Position numbers and translations under genes: made by a program. A stretch of 35,071 nucleotides of DNA. It comes from a bacterium. Lineage in GTDB: Bacteria; Electryoneota; JAOADG01. The stretch spans positions 1 through 35,071 of the forward strand of contig JAOTSC010000012.1 in assembly GCA_030247525.1 (NCBI GenBank). The letters run 5' to 3'. Below, one piece after another: positions 16,223 to 26,494 of this stretch. Position 1 is the stretch's first letter. Each line of letters starts with the position of its first letter. Below the pieces are notes generated by a model, which was not told the DNA's origin, made no database searches, and saw nothing but the letters and a program-made list of their open reading frames with translations.

Positions 16223-18337
16223 TTATTTTAATAACATCAGTTTCCGCGTTTGAACCTGAGATCCTGCTTGTAACCGACAGAAGTATGTACCGGAAGCGAA
16301 TGCTTGAGCGTCCCATTGCACCGAGTAACGTCCGGCATCCTGATGAAAATCGATTAACTTCGCGACTTCTTTACCGGTAACATCATAGATTGCCAACCGA
16401 ACCGGTGATGTTTGCGGTACGTCGTACGTAATCGTGGTCGTCGCATTGAAGGGATTGGGAAAATTTGAGTGTAAGGCGAAGTGAACGGGGGGAGACGATA
16501 TTGTGCGGTCAACGACCGGTAAAGCTTCTGCGCAATCGAATACTGCGAGATGAGAAAAATTGACTCCATACACAAAATTTCCGTCGACTGCAATCTCCCA
16601 AAGCAAACCATCGGAATCATAGTAACCAGCGGTCAGCGGGTGTTCCGGATCGGTAATGTCAATGATTTGTAAACCACCTTGCGAACAAGCGACAAAGAGA
16701 AAATTTCCTGATTTCTTTAGAGATATACCTTTACCCCTTAAATTGCATCTCCCAACTTCGTTTGGATGAATTGGATCGTTCACATCGAAGGCTTGTAAGC
16801 CGTATTCGAGACTGGCAGTGTAAAGAATATTACCGGAGACCAAAAGATCGTTCGGGTGACAATCGACGAGAAACCGGCATCGTTCCAGATAGGTAGAAGC
16901 ATCGTAAATGGTAACATTCGAGTCGCTGTTCGCGACGTAGATGTATCCGTTCGAGTAATCGACTGCTCTTGCATTGCCGGGAGTATTAATAAAAGTAATG
17001 TACTGCGGAGAGGCGATGTTCGTTACGTCATAAACACTGACCCCGTTATTATAGCGACTAACATAACAGAGGTTGTTATTGAAAGCGAGATCACACACGT
17101 CACCGTTGATGTTTAATCGTGAAATGTGTACAGGTTGATTAGGAATGGAAACATCATAGCAATCGATTCCGTTATGATCGATTGAAACAAAGAGTCGGTT
17201 GTCACGAACTTTTAATATGGTTACATCCTGATTGGGAAGCATTGTGTCGATTTCGGTACAGTGCGCCCGGTCACTGCAATCGACAATTCTTACTCCGGCA
17301 CTTTGAGTTCCAATATAAAGTGTGTTGTTAATATTCTCACAACTGAAAAGGTATCCCATTGTCGTATAGGTTGCGCGAACAACCGGTGCTTCGGGATTAA
17401 CAATCGAAGCCCGAGTGATATTGCCATAAGAGTTAAACAGCAGATTCGAATCGGAAACTGCCAATCGAGTCGAATACTCCGTGCTCATACGGTATTGGAT
17501 AGGTGTCCCTAACGACAAAGGATCGCTGACGTTGAGTGCCCATAAACTGGAGTATGATGAAGCTTTAAAAATAACGTAATTACGAGTCAAGGCGATACGC
17601 TGTATCATATCGAATGTAAATCGATTTACAAATGTCGGAGTAGCCGGGTTACTCACCGACAATATCGTTAGTCCATAATTACAAACACCGAAGGCAAGAG
17701 TGTCGCGGAATTCGAACTTGCCGCCCCAATCGGGGAGCGTGTCTACCAATACCGGATTCGTTGGTTGGGAAATGTCGAGTATCGACAAGGTATGGCGGGG
17801 AGATTCGGCGAGATAGGCATAATTTCCAAACACAGAAACGTCTGTGATACTGCGCCCGTTTCGGTATCGCCCAACCTCGACCGGTAGCGATGGATTCGAG
17901 ACATTCAGTATGCGTACGCCACAGGTGTCGTTCGCTAAATATACGAAGTTGCCTTGTTTGTCAATATCGTACACGAAATAGGGAAGATCGAGTGTATAAA
18001 TCACCTGTGGTAAGGTTGGTTGTGATATATCGACGATCTGGAAGCCATCGAATAAGGAATAGAAGAGATAGTTACTATCGAGAACCGATTCGAGGTAAAT
18101 TTTATCCGACGGTATCGAACCGACTTCCAAGAGACTATCGGAATTACGCAAATCGAACACGGAAAGACCGGTAAATCCAGTGATACAATAGGCGTAATTT
18201 CCTCGAACTCTTATGTTGGAAACGCCACCCCAAGTGTGGTATAGAGTTCCAAGTTGCCGGACGCGCAACGAGTCAACGGCGTGAGCGGTTGTAACCACAA
18301 ACAAAAGAATAAAGAGAGTGGGTCTAAAAAATCGCAT
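16223..18337 (-). CDS. Secreted LVIVD-repeat beta-propeller protein with C-terminal FlgD-like/type IX sorting domain
   Basis: A 704-aa protein. A signal peptide (MRFFRPTLFILLFVVTTAHA) is followed by many repeats of about 45 residues containing the pattern G-N-Y-A-Y ... I-L-D-I-S-x-P-x-x-P (for example FDGFQIVDISQPTLPQ, GVRILNVSNPSLPVEVG), which is the LVIVD repeat of beta-propellers. The last 85 residues contain NFPNPFNATTTITYDV, VRLAIYDVTGKEVAKL and GTYFCRLQAG, the FlgD-Ig/Por-type sorting domain used by the type IX secretion system in FCB bacteria. It is probably released or anchored on the cell surface. It stands alone between a terminator and the sigma-54 promoter, and its link to motility is unknown. 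A TGAGG ribosome site precedes the ATG. Confidence 0.88.
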   Translation of the reverse strand: MRFFRPTLFILLFVVTTAHAVDSLRVRQLGTLYHTWGGVSNIRVRGNYAYCITGFTGLSVFDLRNSDSLLEVGSIPSDKIYLESVLDSNYLFYSLFDGFQIVDISQPTLPQVIYTLDLPYFVYDIDKQGNFVYLANDTCGVRILNVSNPSLPVEVGRYRNGRSITDVSVFGNYAYLAESPRHTLSILDISQPTNPVLVDTLPDWGGKFEFRDTLAFGVCNYGLTILSVSNPATPTFVNRFTFDMIQRIALTRNYVIFKASSYSSLWALNVSDPLSLGTPIQYRMSTEYSTRLAVSDSNLLFNSYGNITRASIVNPEAPVVRATYTTMGYLFSCENINNTLYIGTQSAGVRIVDCSDRAHCTEIDTMLPNQDVTILKVRDNRLFVSIDHNGIDCYDVSIPNQPVHISRLNINGDVCDLAFNNNLCYVSRYNNGVSVYDVTNIASPQYITFINTPGNARAVDYSNGYIYVANSDSNVTIYDASTYLERCRFLVDCHPNDLLVSGNILYTASLEYGLQAFDVNDPIHPNEVGRCNLRGKGISLKKSGNFLFVACSQGGLQIIDITDPEHPLTAGYYDSDGLLWEIAVDGNFVYGVNFSHLAVFDCAEALPVVDRTISSPPVHFALHSNFPNPFNATTTITYDVPQTSPVRLAIYDVTGKEVAKLIDFHQDAGRYSVQWDAQAFASGTYFCRLQAGSQVQTRKLMLLK

Positions 18338-20721: not shown

Positions 20722-21042
20722 TTAAATATAGCGGTCGATGTATTGCCCTTTTTTCGGGGTGTCGTCTGCTTGTTTGTTTTCTTCTTCCGGTGGCAGACTG
20801 TCGTCTGTTTGTTCGTTTTGGCTACCGGGTTGTTTCCATTTCCGAAATTTTCTACCGTCCGGTGAACTGCGCTCAGTTGCTTCGGAACTTGCGGATTCGA
20901 TTGTCTTCATCCGTTGCCGGATGACATCCTGTCGCTTGAGTTCGCGTTGGGTTTCCGTTGGTCGGTCGGTGGCGTGATGGCGTACCCAATCGCTGAGATA
21001 CGGTACCCGCGCCAACCAATCCTGTAGTGCGAACAATTTCAA
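20722..21042 (-). CDS. Small charged protein of unknown function, coupled to fliA
   Basis: A 106-aa protein beginning at a TTG (MKLFALQDWLARVPYLSDW). The TTG overlaps the stop of the displaced fliA frame (TTGA), implying translational coupling. The first 25 residues may form an amphipathic helix; the rest is hydrophilic, with KR-rich and DE/Q-rich stretches and probably disorder. It ends KKGQYIDRYI, and a GxxID-x-Y tail recalls other small proteins at the ends of flagellar operons. It has no signal peptide or TM segment. I do not recognise a family. It could be a regulator of FliA in place of FlgM, which is not found in this window, but nothing in the sequence shows this. Confidence 0.6.
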   Translation of the reverse strand: MKLFALQDWLARVPYLSDWVRHHATDRPTETQRELKRQDVIRQRMKTIESASSEATERSSPDGRKFRKWKQPGSQNEQTDDSLPPEEENKQADDTPKKGQYIDRYI

Positions 21043-21223
21043 GGTGACAATTCCACCGGTTCCGTTGTTATTGCTGGGTTTACATTATCGGCGACTTTGC
21101 GTGGTCTGCCTCGCGGTCGTTTCACTGCGGTTTCTACATTGGCATCGTCTTTGTCCTGCTCATACTCAGCGGCGATTCGCGCCCGTAGCTGTAAAATTAC
21201 TCGACTGTGAATTTGACAGACCC
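21039..21223 (-). other. Displaced C-terminal frame of fliA (recognition helix and AT-hook-like tail)
   Basis: Directly after the fliA codons for ITES the expected family sequence (arginine, then VSQIHSR...) is not in the annotated frame but in the next one. There it reads VCQIHSRVILQLRARIAAEY and continues to a TGA at 21039. The shift fits loss of one base near 21222-21226 (TCG[C]GGGTC). This frame has 60 codons. After the normal end of FliA it adds about 45 residues including KRPRGRPRK, a textbook AT-hook core. Its stop overlaps the TTG of the next gene, supporting that it is genuinely coding. Confidence 0.8.
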
Positions 21224-21922
21224 CGATTCGGTGATGTGCAAAATAACGCCAATTTCCTTTAGTGTGAGTTCCTCGAAGTAATACAGCGCCATCACTTTCC
21301 GGTGCTGTTCCGGCAACTCTACCAATAGCTTTCGTGCTATCGACCGGACCTCGGATAGTTCTAATGCTTCCAACGGCGTATCGGCTGATTCGTCGGAAAT
21401 AACTTCGTGAAAACTCCCACTGGAATTATCACTCGACGATACTTCATTATCAAGCGATACCAATACCCCGGCTCCCGCTTCCGATAATAGTTGTTGAAAT
21501 TGCTCTTCAGTGAGACCGAGCTCAGTAGCGATTTCCTCATCTTCCGGGGAGCGTCCTAACCTACGCTCCAATTCGCGGATAGCCACTTCGATGCGGCGGT
21601 TTTTCACCCGCTGCGTTCGTGGCAACCAGTCGTATTCACGTAATCCATCCAGCATCGCGCCGCGGACTACTGGAACTGCGTAAGTCTCAAATTTAAAGCC
21701 GCGGGCAGGATCGAAATTCTCAATCGCCCGGATTAAACCCAAGATGCCGCAAGACGTTAAATCATCGACTTGTACTGATGCTGGGAGGGTAACTTTTAGC
21801 CGACCGGCAAGGTGATGGACAAGGGTTACGTAATGAATGAGCAGACGGTCTTTTGCCGCCACGCTCCCGGTGCGATGAAAGGCTTCCCAATACTGGGCGA
21901 CATTTTCATCGACTGCTTTCAT
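21197..21922 (-). CDS. fliA: Flagellar sigma factor FliA (sigma-28), apparent frameshift in region 4
   Basis: As read, 241 aa. Region 2 has VDDLTSCGILGLIRAIENFDPARGFKFETYA, region 3 has the REYDWLPRTQR block typical of the FliA/WhiG/SigD class, and region 4 has LPEQHRKVMALYYFEELTLKEIG. The frame leaves the family pattern after TES (residue 233) and ends SVKFTVE, so the recognition helix of region 4 is missing. A single-base deletion explains this. Restored, the protein would have about 294 residues. FliA directs RNA polymerase to late flagellar promoters. The gene overlaps the small membrane protein gene upstream by 4 nt. Either this copy is inactive, or the base is an assembly/sequencing error, or there is recoding. 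Confidence 0.9.
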   Translation of the reverse strand: MKAVDENVAQYWEAFHRTGSVAAKDRLLIHYVTLVHHLAGRLKVTLPASVQVDDLTSCGILGLIRAIENFDPARGFKFETYAVPVVRGAMLDGLREYDWLPRTQRVKNRRIEVAIRELERRLGRSPEDEEIATELGLTEEQFQQLLSEAGAGVLVSLDNEVSSSDNSSGSFHEVISDESADTPLEALELSEVRSIARKLLVELPEQHRKVMALYYFEELTLKEIGVILHITESGSVKFTVE

Positions 21923-22209
21923 TGGGTGACTTCCGCTTCACTGGTTCGGGCAAGTTCTTCTTCGCGTTTCCGCTGTTCTTCCTGCCAATCTATGTACGCT
22001 TGCGTCCTTCGCGAATGTTCGGTTTTCAATGCAGAAACCGCCAACCGACTCATGAGAATCGCGAACACAAAGAGAATCATTGAACTGATTATCCATGTCA
22101 CAAATGCCCGTAGTAAGGCAGTCTCGAGCGGTTGGTGCGCAATCAAAGAAACGACCAGAATGAGCGTCGCGAGAAACACGGCAATCTTTTGTGAAACCCT
22201 GCCACTCAT
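21919..22209 (-). CDS. Small two-TM membrane protein of unknown function
   Basis: A 96-aa protein with two hydrophobic helices (residues 8-25 and 33-55) joined by a short loop, then a charged helical tail (WQEEQRKREEELARTSEAE) that probably lies in the cytoplasm. It overlaps flhG upstream and fliA downstream by 4 nt each (ATGG/ATGA type junctions), so the three are surely cotranslated. In Firmicutes the flhG-sigma interval is filled by che genes, and this one matches none of them. I do not recognise a family. A membrane partner for FlhG or a flagellar basal-body accessory is possible but unproven. Confidence 0.65.
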   Translation of the reverse strand: MSGRVSQKIAVFLATLILVVSLIAHQPLETALLRAFVTWIISSMILFVFAILMSRLAVSALKTEHSRRTQAYIDWQEEQRKREEELARTSEAEVTQ

Positions 22210-23069
22210 GGTTTACTACCCCGCATCAAGCGACCGAATAGCGTTTCTTTTTTTCCATCGGGTGCGACGGGGGGGTGCTTCAATAGCTTTCGTGCGATAC
22301 TTGAAATCGCAATCGACGCTTCGGTCTTCGGCGCCATTAACAAATATGGCTGCTGACGGTTTACGGCATTGATAACATTAGTATCGTAAGGAATGTTCCC
22401 TAAAAAGTGGATTTGAATATTGAGAAAATTCTGTACGACCAATTGCAACTGCTCAAAGACATCGAAACCGTCGGAAGGGCGGCGAACGCCATTGACCAGT
22501 ATGTAAAGCCGGGTGCGCACCGACCGGGATGATATAATTTTTATGAGTGCGTAAGCGTCGGCAAGCGCGGTCGGCTCCGGTTGGGTCACAATAATCGCTT
22601 CGTCGGCAGCGGTAACAAAATGAACGACGGTTTCGTTGATACCGGCACCGGTATCAATCACCATGATATCGAGGTCGCGTTCGTAAACTGCGAGCGATGT
22701 CGTGATTTCGTTCCGGATCATGCCATCGTTCCCAACCAATTCAACGATGCCCGATGTACCGGGAAGTACTTGAATTCCCGCCGGGCCGGTAAAAACGACT
22801 TCAGAGAGTGGTATGCCGCCCTTTGCGACATCGTGTAGTGTGTATTTAGACGACACGCCCAGTAGGATATCAACATTCGCCAGGTTCGTATCCGCATCGA
22901 CCAACATGACGCGCTGTCCTAATTTCGCAAGCGCGATTGAGAGATTCACTGATGTATTCGATTTACCGGTGCCACCCTTGCCCGAAGTAACGGCGATTTT
23001 ACGCGCACCAGTCCGGATATTGGATTGGTTGCCCATTTGGTCGCGTAGTTTTGCTGCTTGGTCGTTCAA
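22206..23069 (-). CDS. flhG: Flagellar number/placement ATPase FlhG (MinD/ParA family)
   Basis: A 287-aa P-loop ATPase. The deviant Walker A KGGTGKS lies at residues 31-37 after KIAVTSG. VMLVDADTNLANVDILLG, IDTGAGI and the switch region are as in MinD. FlhG limits the number of flagella and stimulates the GTPase of FlhF. The start is a TTG at 23069, preceded by GAGG 5-6 nt upstream. The next in-frame start, ATG at residue 12, has no ribosome site, so TTG is preferred. The last residues (LFGRLMRGSKP) are basic and hydrophobic and could help membrane contact, although the MinD-type amphipathic helix is not obvious. It lies 38 nt after flhF. Confidence 0.93.
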   Translation of the reverse strand: MNDQAAKLRDQMGNQSNIRTGARKIAVTSGKGGTGKSNTSVNLSIALAKLGQRVMLVDADTNLANVDILLGVSSKYTLHDVAKGGIPLSEVVFTGPAGIQVLPGTSGIVELVGNDGMIRNEITTSLAVYERDLDIMVIDTGAGINETVVHFVTAADEAIIVTQPEPTALADAYALIKIISSRSVRTRLYILVNGVRRPSDGFDVFEQLQLVVQNFLNIQIHFLGNIPYDTNVINAVNRQQPYLLMAPKTEASIAISSIARKLLKHPPVAPDGKKETLFGRLMRGSKP

Positions 23070-23107
23070 AAGTGCCTCGTCATCGACAGTTGTAAAGTTT
23101 ATCGAGT

Positions 23108-24406
23108 TTACTCGGACATCGAATTGGATGGATTGGGTTGGGCGTGTAGCTTGAAGCGCGCCTGTTGCAATTCCGTAAAGAGAGAAGCGGATAATATTCC
23201 CCGCGCCAATAGCCGGGGATCAGCAACCATAATATCGTCAGGTACGTTTTGTCCGACAGTCCAATACGACAGGGTGCGAGCGGTTCGCTTCGCAAAACTT
23301 AGCCAACGTCCCGGTTGAGTCGTTTCGTCCAATTTCGTTGCCACAATTCGGGTAATCGGTAGTTCGCGGTAACGGTCGAATTGCGCTAACAAATCAGCTA
23401 ACGCTGTTGTTCCCGATAACAACAAAAACGATTCGTCGGGTGGAACAACTTGAGTAAACTCTACCATATCTGGTAACGCGGTTCCATCGACTGGGCTGCG
23501 GCCGGGTGTATCAACAAAAATCGCGTCAAATCGCGCTGCTTTGAACCGTTCCACTTGCGCCGCAAGTTCCTCCGGCGTAAACGCCACTTCCAACGGTAAG
23601 TTGGCGATGTCGGCGAACACTTTCAGTTGTTCGATTGCTGCGACACGAAACGTATCGATCGAACATAATGCAACGCGGCGCTTTCCCCAAAACCGGTGAT
23701 GGGTAGCAAGTTTCGCTAATGTTGTCGTTTTACCGACACCAGTCGGCCCTATCAAAAAAATTACCTGACCACGTTGATCTACTGGAACCGCTGAAGCGGG
23801 AACCATTGCCGAGAGTTTATCGAGCCACCATCGCTGTAGATCAAGTTTGTCGATCCGGTCGATGTTAGGAATTTCGCGTAAACACTCGTGTAATAATTCG
23901 TTTCGTTCGGGTTCATCGAGTCCGGAACTTTCCATCGCATTAGCGATTTCTGCTAAATCCGGCGGTAAATCTGGTAACTTGGCAGCGCGAATCTGGTTCG
24001 ATAACTCTTTGACGGTACCTTTTAATCCCTCCAGCTCAGCCCGCAAAGAACGTACCGTCATCTGGTCTTGGCTACTGTTCATGGGCTTTGCTGAACTTTG
24101 CGCTTCCGCCATTCGGACTGCGGGGGGGATTGAACCTTCCCGCGGGGTAGTTAATGGTGGACGACGGGAAACAATCGACTGTACATCGCGCGCATCTTGT
24201 CCCACTGTGGATTGCACTTGCGGCAATGTTCGATCAAGCGTTGCCGCAGTGACTTCGAGTACCGTTTGATTTTTACCGCTCAGTTTACCCTTGCGTTCGA
24301 TCCGTTCCGTTTTCAGAATTACGGCATCGTCGCCTAATTCGGCGCGGATTTGCGTCATCGCTTCATTGAGCGTAGGCGCGAGAAATTTTTTGATCCGCAT
24401 TGCCAT
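23108..24406 (-). CDS. flhF: Flagellar placement GTPase FlhF (SRP-like)
   Basis: A 432-aa protein with three parts. Residues 1-60 are the conserved B-like N-terminus (MRIKKFLAPTLNEAMTQIRAELGDDAVIL). Residues 60-210 are a variable linker and helical N domain. Residues 213-415 are the SRP-type G domain with GPTGVGKT at 220-227, DTFRVAA at 251-257 and TKLDET. The G3 motif reads DTPGRSP instead of the usual DTAGR. FlhF recruits early flagellar components to the right site, often the pole. ATG 24406 lies 6 nt after flhA. Presence of the FlhF-FlhG pair suggests controlled flagellar number and position. Confidence 0.94.
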   Translation of the reverse strand: MAMRIKKFLAPTLNEAMTQIRAELGDDAVILKTERIERKGKLSGKNQTVLEVTAATLDRTLPQVQSTVGQDARDVQSIVSRRPPLTTPREGSIPPAVRMAEAQSSAKPMNSSQDQMTVRSLRAELEGLKGTVKELSNQIRAAKLPDLPPDLAEIANAMESSGLDEPERNELLHECLREIPNIDRIDKLDLQRWWLDKLSAMVPASAVPVDQRGQVIFLIGPTGVGKTTTLAKLATHHRFWGKRRVALCSIDTFRVAAIEQLKVFADIANLPLEVAFTPEELAAQVERFKAARFDAIFVDTPGRSPVDGTALPDMVEFTQVVPPDESFLLLSGTTALADLLAQFDRYRELPITRIVATKLDETTQPGRWLSFAKRTARTLSYWTVGQNVPDDIMVADPRLLARGILSASLFTELQQARFKLHAQPNPSNSMSE

Positions 24407-24412
24407 AATAGT

Positions 24413-26494
24413 TTACGCTGTGACGACTCCGATACTTTCGATATTCGTTTCTGCTGTTAACTCACCGAAAGATAAGACAGTAACATCAGGTAACACCGGT
24501 TCCAACAATCGCCGCAAATATAGCCGAATGGAAGGTGAAGTCACCAGAATCGGCTGACGACCCTGCTGCTTCACTGCCGTCACCTGCGTTTGCAGCGAGC
24601 GATAAAATCCCTGCAAGAACTGCGGCGGTAAATTAATATTCTGCAATCTCCCCCCGGCTTGTTGCGCTTCGTCGGCAATCGCTTCCTCCGTCTGAGGGGC
24701 GAGGGTTAGTGCATACAATTTACCATCGGAATCGGCGAATTTCTGCGTGATTGTCGGCGATAACGCATATCGGACATATTCGGTCAACAGGTCCGGGTCT
24801 TTCGTTAATGGGGCATAATCGCTTAATGCTTCGCAGATTGTCGACAGGTCGCGAACCGGAATCCCTTCCTTCAGTAAGCGTTGCAGGATTTTATGGACGC
24901 CGCCGATTGACATTAGATTCGGAATCAATTCATCGATAACTGCCGAACTGTCGTTCTTCAAGATACTAATCAAACTCTGAACATCCTGCCGCGAGAGGAT
25001 GCGATGTGAATTCCGCCGGATGACTTCTACCAGATGGGTTGCCAAAACCGCCGGCGGTTCGACCACTGTAAATCCATTCGATTCGGCCCGTTCCCGTTCC
25101 CGTTCCGGAATCCACACTGCGGGGAGTCCATAAGTTGGCTCTTTTGTACGAACACCATCCAGCTCACCAATTGCTGTGCCAGGATTCAATGCAAGGTAAT
25201 GACCCATGCGTAACTCAGATTTGGCAACCTCATTTCCGCGAATTTTTACAACATATTCGTTGGGTTTGAGTTGGATATTGTCGCGAATCCGGATCGGCGG
25301 AACGACAATTCCCATGTGCATCGCCTGTTGCTTACGAATTAGAGTGATCCGCGAAAGCAAATCGCCATCCTGTGCCGTGTCCACCAAGGGAATTAGCGCA
25401 TAACCAATTTCCAATTCCAACGGATCGATGGCGAGAAAATCTTCCGGTTTATCCTTCGGTTTCGATGATTCTTTCGCTTTCGATTCAACAACCATCAGAT
25501 CGCTCTTCTCAGCTTCCTTTTGTTTAACTGCGATCCAAACCAGAATGCCGCATAAAATCCACATCGGGAGCAACGGGAAACCGGGCACAAAGCCAAACAG
25601 AAAGAGCACTGACGCAGCTATCCAAATCGACCGGTTAAAGCGGAACAATTGCTTGGTGATGCCGCTACCAAGGTTTTCCTTCGATGCCGCCCGCGATACT
25701 AAAATACCTGCGCCAACAGAGACGATAAGAGATGGAATTTGGGTTACCAGACCATCGCCGACCGTCAATATGGTATATAACGAAGCCGCCTTCTCGAAGG
25801 ACATGCCGCGCTGCCAGACGCCGATAACAATGCCACCGATAATGTTGATGAATGTGATGAGTAACCCTGCGACAGCGTCTCCGCGGACAAACTTGGATGC
25901 GCCATCCATCGCTCCGTAGAAGTCGGCTTCTTTGGTCACTTTCTCACGGCGTTCCCGAGCGTCCTCTTCTCCGATTAGTCCATTGTTCAGGTCGGCATCG
26001 ATTGCCATCTGCTTGCCAGGCATCGCGTCGAGGGTGAAACGAGCAGCCACTTCTGCGATTCGACCGGAACCTTTGATGATAACGACAAAGTTAATAACAT
26101 TGAGTAACAAGAAGATGACTAAACCGATAACATAGTTGCCACGGATAACAAAGGATCCGAATGCTTCGATAATCCTCCCACCGGTAGCCTCTGAGAGAAT
26201 CAAGCGGGTTGTCGAAATATTTACCGATAACCGATATAGTGTTACCACCAGCAAAAGACCGGGAAAGACGCTGAACTGCAATGGTTCTTCGGTATACGTA
26301 CAAACCATCAGGATAAGTAGCGAGATGGTGATTGATATAGTCAATAAAATATCGATGGCAAAGGCAGGCATCGGTAGAATCAAGATGGCAAGCACACCAA
26401 TGACCGCAACTGCGAACCAAACGTCCGCCTTCTGCGTCAGTTTCGTGATGAAACTGTTTTCTTTTGGTTTGATTGTCGCTTCTTTTAATGCCAC
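24413..26494 (-). CDS. flhA: Flagellar export gate protein FlhA
   Basis: A 693-aa protein of the FHIPEP family. The N-terminal half holds about eight transmembrane helices, and the signature region RFTLDAMPGKQMAIDADLN begins at residue 152. The C-terminal half (from about 340) is the cytoplasmic domain that docks chaperone-substrate complexes. It contains YALIPLVDTAQDGDLLSRI and PVRDLSTICEALSDYAPLTKD, both conserved. Length is typical (about 690). FlhA forms a nonameric ring that uses the proton gradient for export. It is 55 nt downstream of flhB. Confidence 0.97.
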   Translation of the reverse strand: MALKEATIKPKENSFITKLTQKADVWFAVAVIGVLAILILPMPAFAIDILLTISITISLLILMVCTYTEEPLQFSVFPGLLLVVTLYRLSVNISTTRLILSEATGGRIIEAFGSFVIRGNYVIGLVIFLLLNVINFVVIIKGSGRIAEVAARFTLDAMPGKQMAIDADLNNGLIGEEDARERREKVTKEADFYGAMDGASKFVRGDAVAGLLITFINIIGGIVIGVWQRGMSFEKAASLYTILTVGDGLVTQIPSLIVSVGAGILVSRAASKENLGSGITKQLFRFNRSIWIAASVLFLFGFVPGFPLLPMWILCGILVWIAVKQKEAEKSDLMVVESKAKESSKPKDKPEDFLAIDPLELEIGYALIPLVDTAQDGDLLSRITLIRKQQAMHMGIVVPPIRIRDNIQLKPNEYVVKIRGNEVAKSELRMGHYLALNPGTAIGELDGVRTKEPTYGLPAVWIPERERERAESNGFTVVEPPAVLATHLVEVIRRNSHRILSRQDVQSLISILKNDSSAVIDELIPNLMSIGGVHKILQRLLKEGIPVRDLSTICEALSDYAPLTKDPDLLTEYVRYALSPTITQKFADSDGKLYALTLAPQTEEAIADEAQQAGGRLQNINLPPQFLQGFYRSLQTQVTAVKQQGRQPILVTSPSIRLYLRRLLEPVLPDVTVLSFGELTAETNIESIGVVTA

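Follow-up and report, generated by a model that had tools for sequence, protein, structure and literature searches.

Motility is commonly lost through single lesions, and in some bacteria (e.g. Campylobacter) frameshifts in flagellar genes underlie motility loss or phase variation. Frame breaks are also introduced by assembly and consensus errors in draft metagenome-assembled genomes. The fliA gene analyzed here, located in a window of 35,071 nucleotides (the whole stretch of DNA under analysis), has features of both. As in the Campylobacter-type cases, a single-base indel would disable flagellar expression, but the gene contains no long homopolymer and the other flagellar genes of the window are not decayed. 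As in the draft assemblies, the lesion affects a single base, coding constraint persists beyond it and further lesions, including one in an essential gene, are present in the same assembly, although the fliA lesion differs in not lying within a long homopolymer. A survey of the literature on metagenome indel errors and on fliA homopolymer phase variation found nothing bearing on this particular case.

With the FliA/WhiG family of sigma-28 factors (TIGR02479) the window gene shares regions 2, 3 and 4, an operon position after flhA-flhF-flhG and standard sigma-28 target promoters; it differs in that its consensus sequence is broken within the region 4.2 helix. The gene is truly one base short in the consensus. 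Judging from the context, which includes an essential single-copy gene broken in a similar way in this genome, the missing base most likely reflects a flaw of the assembled sequence or a very recent mutation and not new biology.

The fliA reading frame and its break

The fliA ORF is encoded on the minus strand, with an ATG at 21922 and a TAA stop at 21197-21199. This first frame matched TIGR02479 with an E-value of 9.7e-65 and 218.4 bits, above the curated cut-off of 189.6, with the match reaching residue 233 only, and the Pfam domain Sigma70_r4 was covered over profile positions 1-35 of 50. The family likeness runs through H-I-T-E-S and is followed by GSVKFTVE and the stop, which agrees with the initial annotation, according to which the protein follows the family through ITES and then loses it. 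A complete region 4 with its recognition helix is thus not contained in one frame, and the consensus product lacks most of the region 4.2 helix, as had been claimed for the truncated protein. The incomplete region 4 points to a damaged member of this family rather than to membership in another one.

The family frame extends from 21922 to ∼21224, and the remaining part of region 4.2 (VCQIHSRVILQLRAR) was found one frame over (-1), where VCQIHSRVILQLRARI is read from 21221 downwards and the frame stays open until a TGA at 21039-21041. The same join was obtained in a tblastn search with a relative's FliA as the query (21850-21224 in one frame, 21221-21102 in the other). This bears out the earlier proposal that the family continuation lies in the next frame, one base being missing, and places the missing base in the codon for an arginine found in the relatives. 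The "short G run" mentioned in the same proposal is present, but amounts to GGGG only. The coordinates of the features are listed in Table 1.

Table 1. Features of the fliA locus (positions in the window)
Feature	Position	Strand
Next gene, 106 aa, TTG start; small conserved flagellar-locus protein (MKLFALQD...)	20722..21042	-
Lineage-specific C-terminal tail with AT-hook KRPRGRPRK; -1 frame, ends at TGA	21039..21169	-
Remainder of region 4.2 (VCQIHSRVILQLRARI); -1 frame, invariant columns of relatives kept	21170..21221	-
fliA (sigma-28), first frame: regions 2, 3, 4.1 and start of 4.2, then GSVKFTVE	21200..21922	-
Break site: E-S codons, then four G, one base short of E-S-R-V	21218..21229	-
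Small membrane protein gene, directly upstream of fliA with overlapping start; intact	21919..22209	-
flhG (FlhG/FleN-like ATPase), flhF and flhA; upstream, same operon, intact	22206..26494	-

Coding potential downstream of the break, also postulated initially, was confirmed: through the tail, the codon-usage score of the shifted frame was +0.12 per codon, versus about -0.5 in the two others. Over the 52-base homologous part alone the frames could not be told apart by codon usage; the argument for this part is carried by the protein match. The overlap noted previously is real: the stop codon of the shifted frame overlaps the start codon of the next gene (TTGA). Homologues of this 106-aa gene, starting with MK(L/I)(L/I)ALQD, follow fliA in the relatives. 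Since codon usage through the tail favors the shifted frame and the frame overlaps a conserved neighbor, the tail very probably does code for protein, which leaves the one-base break as very probably the only lesion. The 106-aa protein matched no NCBIfam or Pfam family; among its homologues, the MKxxALQD start was seen in some relatives and an ID(I/F)(Q/K)(I/V) end in others.

The remaining flagellar genes of the window, named from their sequences, comprise unbroken long ORFs for flhA, flhF, flhG, flhB, fliR, fliP, flgG, flgI, flgK, flgL and others, and no sign of decay of the motility system was found among them. The flagellar cluster also encloses a gene (16223-18337, minus strand) whose product, 704 residues long, resembles a secreted beta-propeller protein and carries a sorting domain at its C-terminus.

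Conservation of FliA and of its target promoters

A comparison with related genomes, suggested by the initial annotation as a check, was performed by searching 60 of them for FliA. Most genomes of the same phylum carry one clear FliA each. Twenty-nine same-phylum loci were fetched (L010-L038), 27 of which could be read across the break site with the motif used. In all 27 the gene is unbroken, encoding E-S-R-(V/I/A)-(S/C)-Q-I-H in a single frame, with arginine at the position of the break. The arginine codon varies among them (CGC, CGG, CGA, CGT or AGA), and therefore no repeat or slippery string is conserved at this site. Behind the break, Q, I, H and L occupy columns that are at least 90% conserved in the relatives, and the -1 frame of the window gene keeps all of them. 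It agrees with every invariant column (Q, I and H), while L and R are almost invariant. This agreement is far beyond chance.

The draft environmental genome of this uncultured bacterium (G000; 3.59 Mb in 305 contigs, 98% complete) contains a single copy of fliA; a second copy that could make the broken one dispensable was sought in it and not found. A strain of the same species was sought in a collection of genome contigs, which yielded only four distant loci (39-48% identity). In G001, the nearest genome from the same family, the only match to FliA was an apparent housekeeping sigma factor.

The published sigma-28 consensus promoter is TAAAGTTT-n11-GCCGATAA (PMC2859248). Two of the three flagellin genes of G000 are preceded by near-perfect sigma-28 boxes, TAAAGTTG-n11-GCCGATGA, whose ends lie ∼40 and ∼58 bases ahead of the respective start codons. 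When the whole genome was searched with a strict pattern, both of these boxes and one further site (on contig C10) were recovered, while the reversed-pattern control gave 0 matches. The gene thus combines a flagellar operon context with sigma-28 promoters in the genome, as befits the sigma-28 family. Because the invariant residues are kept, coding bias continues up to the overlap and the sigma-28 promoters are near-perfect, fliA looks to have been functional until very recently, or to be functional still.

Other frame breaks in the assembly and the origin of the fliA lesion

The base rate of frame breaks was estimated by sampling 1.23 Mb of G000 in stretches and comparing it with the ORFs of two related genomes and with other loci. 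Homologous coding DNA amounted to 482 kb in G000 and contained five breaks, compared to one weak break (L093, in G001) per 808 kb in the two related genomes under the same procedure; this event, weak as it is, was counted against the argument for an excess. The difference corresponds to a one-sided binomial value of ∼0.03, worked by hand, for a small count in which two of the five breaks share a contig (C24). A further candidate (L119), in which distinct domains of a signaling protein match each other weakly, was left uncounted. An automated list of in-frame stops proved to be mostly antisense noise and was used for nuoN only.

The five breaks affect (i) fliA, (ii) a beta-CASP/metallo-beta-lactamase nuclease gene (L079:4665-6057, minus strand), whose break coincides with six consecutive G, (iii) a nuoN copy (C24:8287-9778, L118), which in addition has TGA in place of a conserved tryptophan codon, (iv) a C-terminal sorting-type domain (C3), and (v) coaD, split into two frames at C24:13504-13966 (L118). 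Some of them may be genuine pseudogenes; the C24 nuoN copy could be one, and an intact second nuoN is located on C132. The coaD locus is the only one in G000 matched by the TIGR01510 profile, in two halves (positions 1-77 and 75-155) lying in two frames. In Bacillus subtilis coaD is essential (PMC11487621). Since a cell cannot live without coaD, presuming that no unrelated enzyme replaces CoaD, and its sole copy is split, spurious single-base indels or a mosaic consensus are very probably present in the G000 assembly.

Of the four explanations offered by the initial annotation, a sequencing or assembly error is put first and a recent mutation second, given that the essential single-copy coaD is broken alike in the same assembly. 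We consider it probable that fliA is an ordinary single-copy sigma-28 gene of a flagellar operon and that its break arose during assembly, through a wrong consensus or the merging of strains into a mosaic. The base would then be absent from the assembly only, and we infer that it is present in the reads; the living population would make a normal FliA, which would read the TAAAGTT-n12-GCCGAT promoters upstream of flagellin. What counts against this reading is that the base was lost outside a long homopolymer, which is not the classical type of error. We give clearly less weight to the possibility that fliA did lose its function very recently by mutation, the null allele being either fixed in the population sampled or still segregating there. 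It would accord with the generally common loss of motility through single lesions and with a consensus product deprived of most of its recognition helix, and the cells would build the hook-basal body but not express the sigma-28-dependent late genes. However, the other flagellar genes of the window are undecayed, the sigma-28 promoters and the invariant residues behind the break are kept, and a like break affects an essential gene, where a true null would not be viable. Even if real, the mutation would be an ordinary motility-loss allele.

The two remaining explanations, recoding and phase variation, were not upheld. If ribosomes shifted by -1, or the transcript slipped, on G-GGG, FliA would be made at full length but with its invariant arginine replaced by glycine, an arrangement that might serve dose control. 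It is true that a P-site GGG can re-pair with the GGG one base back and that the -1 frame is open up to the operon overlap. Programmed -1 frameshifting is nevertheless very improbable here: direct reading of the site revealed no X-XXY-YYZ heptamer, the downstream RNA folds no better than shuffled sequences (z = +1.07), the tract has only four G, and the readable relatives all encode the arginine in one frame, with no such device conserved among them. The more elaborate idea that this lineage makes FliA solely through a low-frequency shift at GGGG, the protein being dose-limited and carrying Gly for Arg, with an AT-hook tail helping to hold AT-rich promoters, appears highly unlikely. We attach equally little credence to a toggling of motility by slippage at a simple repeat in fliA. 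A reversible one-base change would presumably look just like this in a consensus, but the coding region lacks a long simple-repeat tract: the broken form reads GGGG and the relatives have interrupted sequences (TCG CGC, TCG CGG, TCC CGT etc.), neither offering a repeat for high-rate slippage.

As a consensus error is favored over the other explanations, the predicted shut-down of the late flagellar genes probably does not apply to the living organism. An annotation pipeline that took the sequence at face value would score the flagellar regulator of this organism as a pseudogene and predict a lack of motility, which is probably wrong. The other frame breaks in this genome (coaD, the beta-CASP nuclease and one nuoN) likewise deserve caution.

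The C-terminal tail

The shifted frame adds a lineage-specific tail of ∼40 residues, which was found in none of the 27 relatives: 55 residues follow Q-I-H in the window FliA, versus 15-21 in the relatives. Its AT-hook scored 17.7 bits with the Pfam AT_hook profile, just above the cut-off of 17.4. The AT-hook core was found in no other ORF in 0.83 Mb of G000 and in none in 1.2 Mb of two relatives. The tail possibly provides an extra DNA contact. For a sigma-28 factor to carry such a DNA-binding tail would be mildly curious, independent of whether the break is real.
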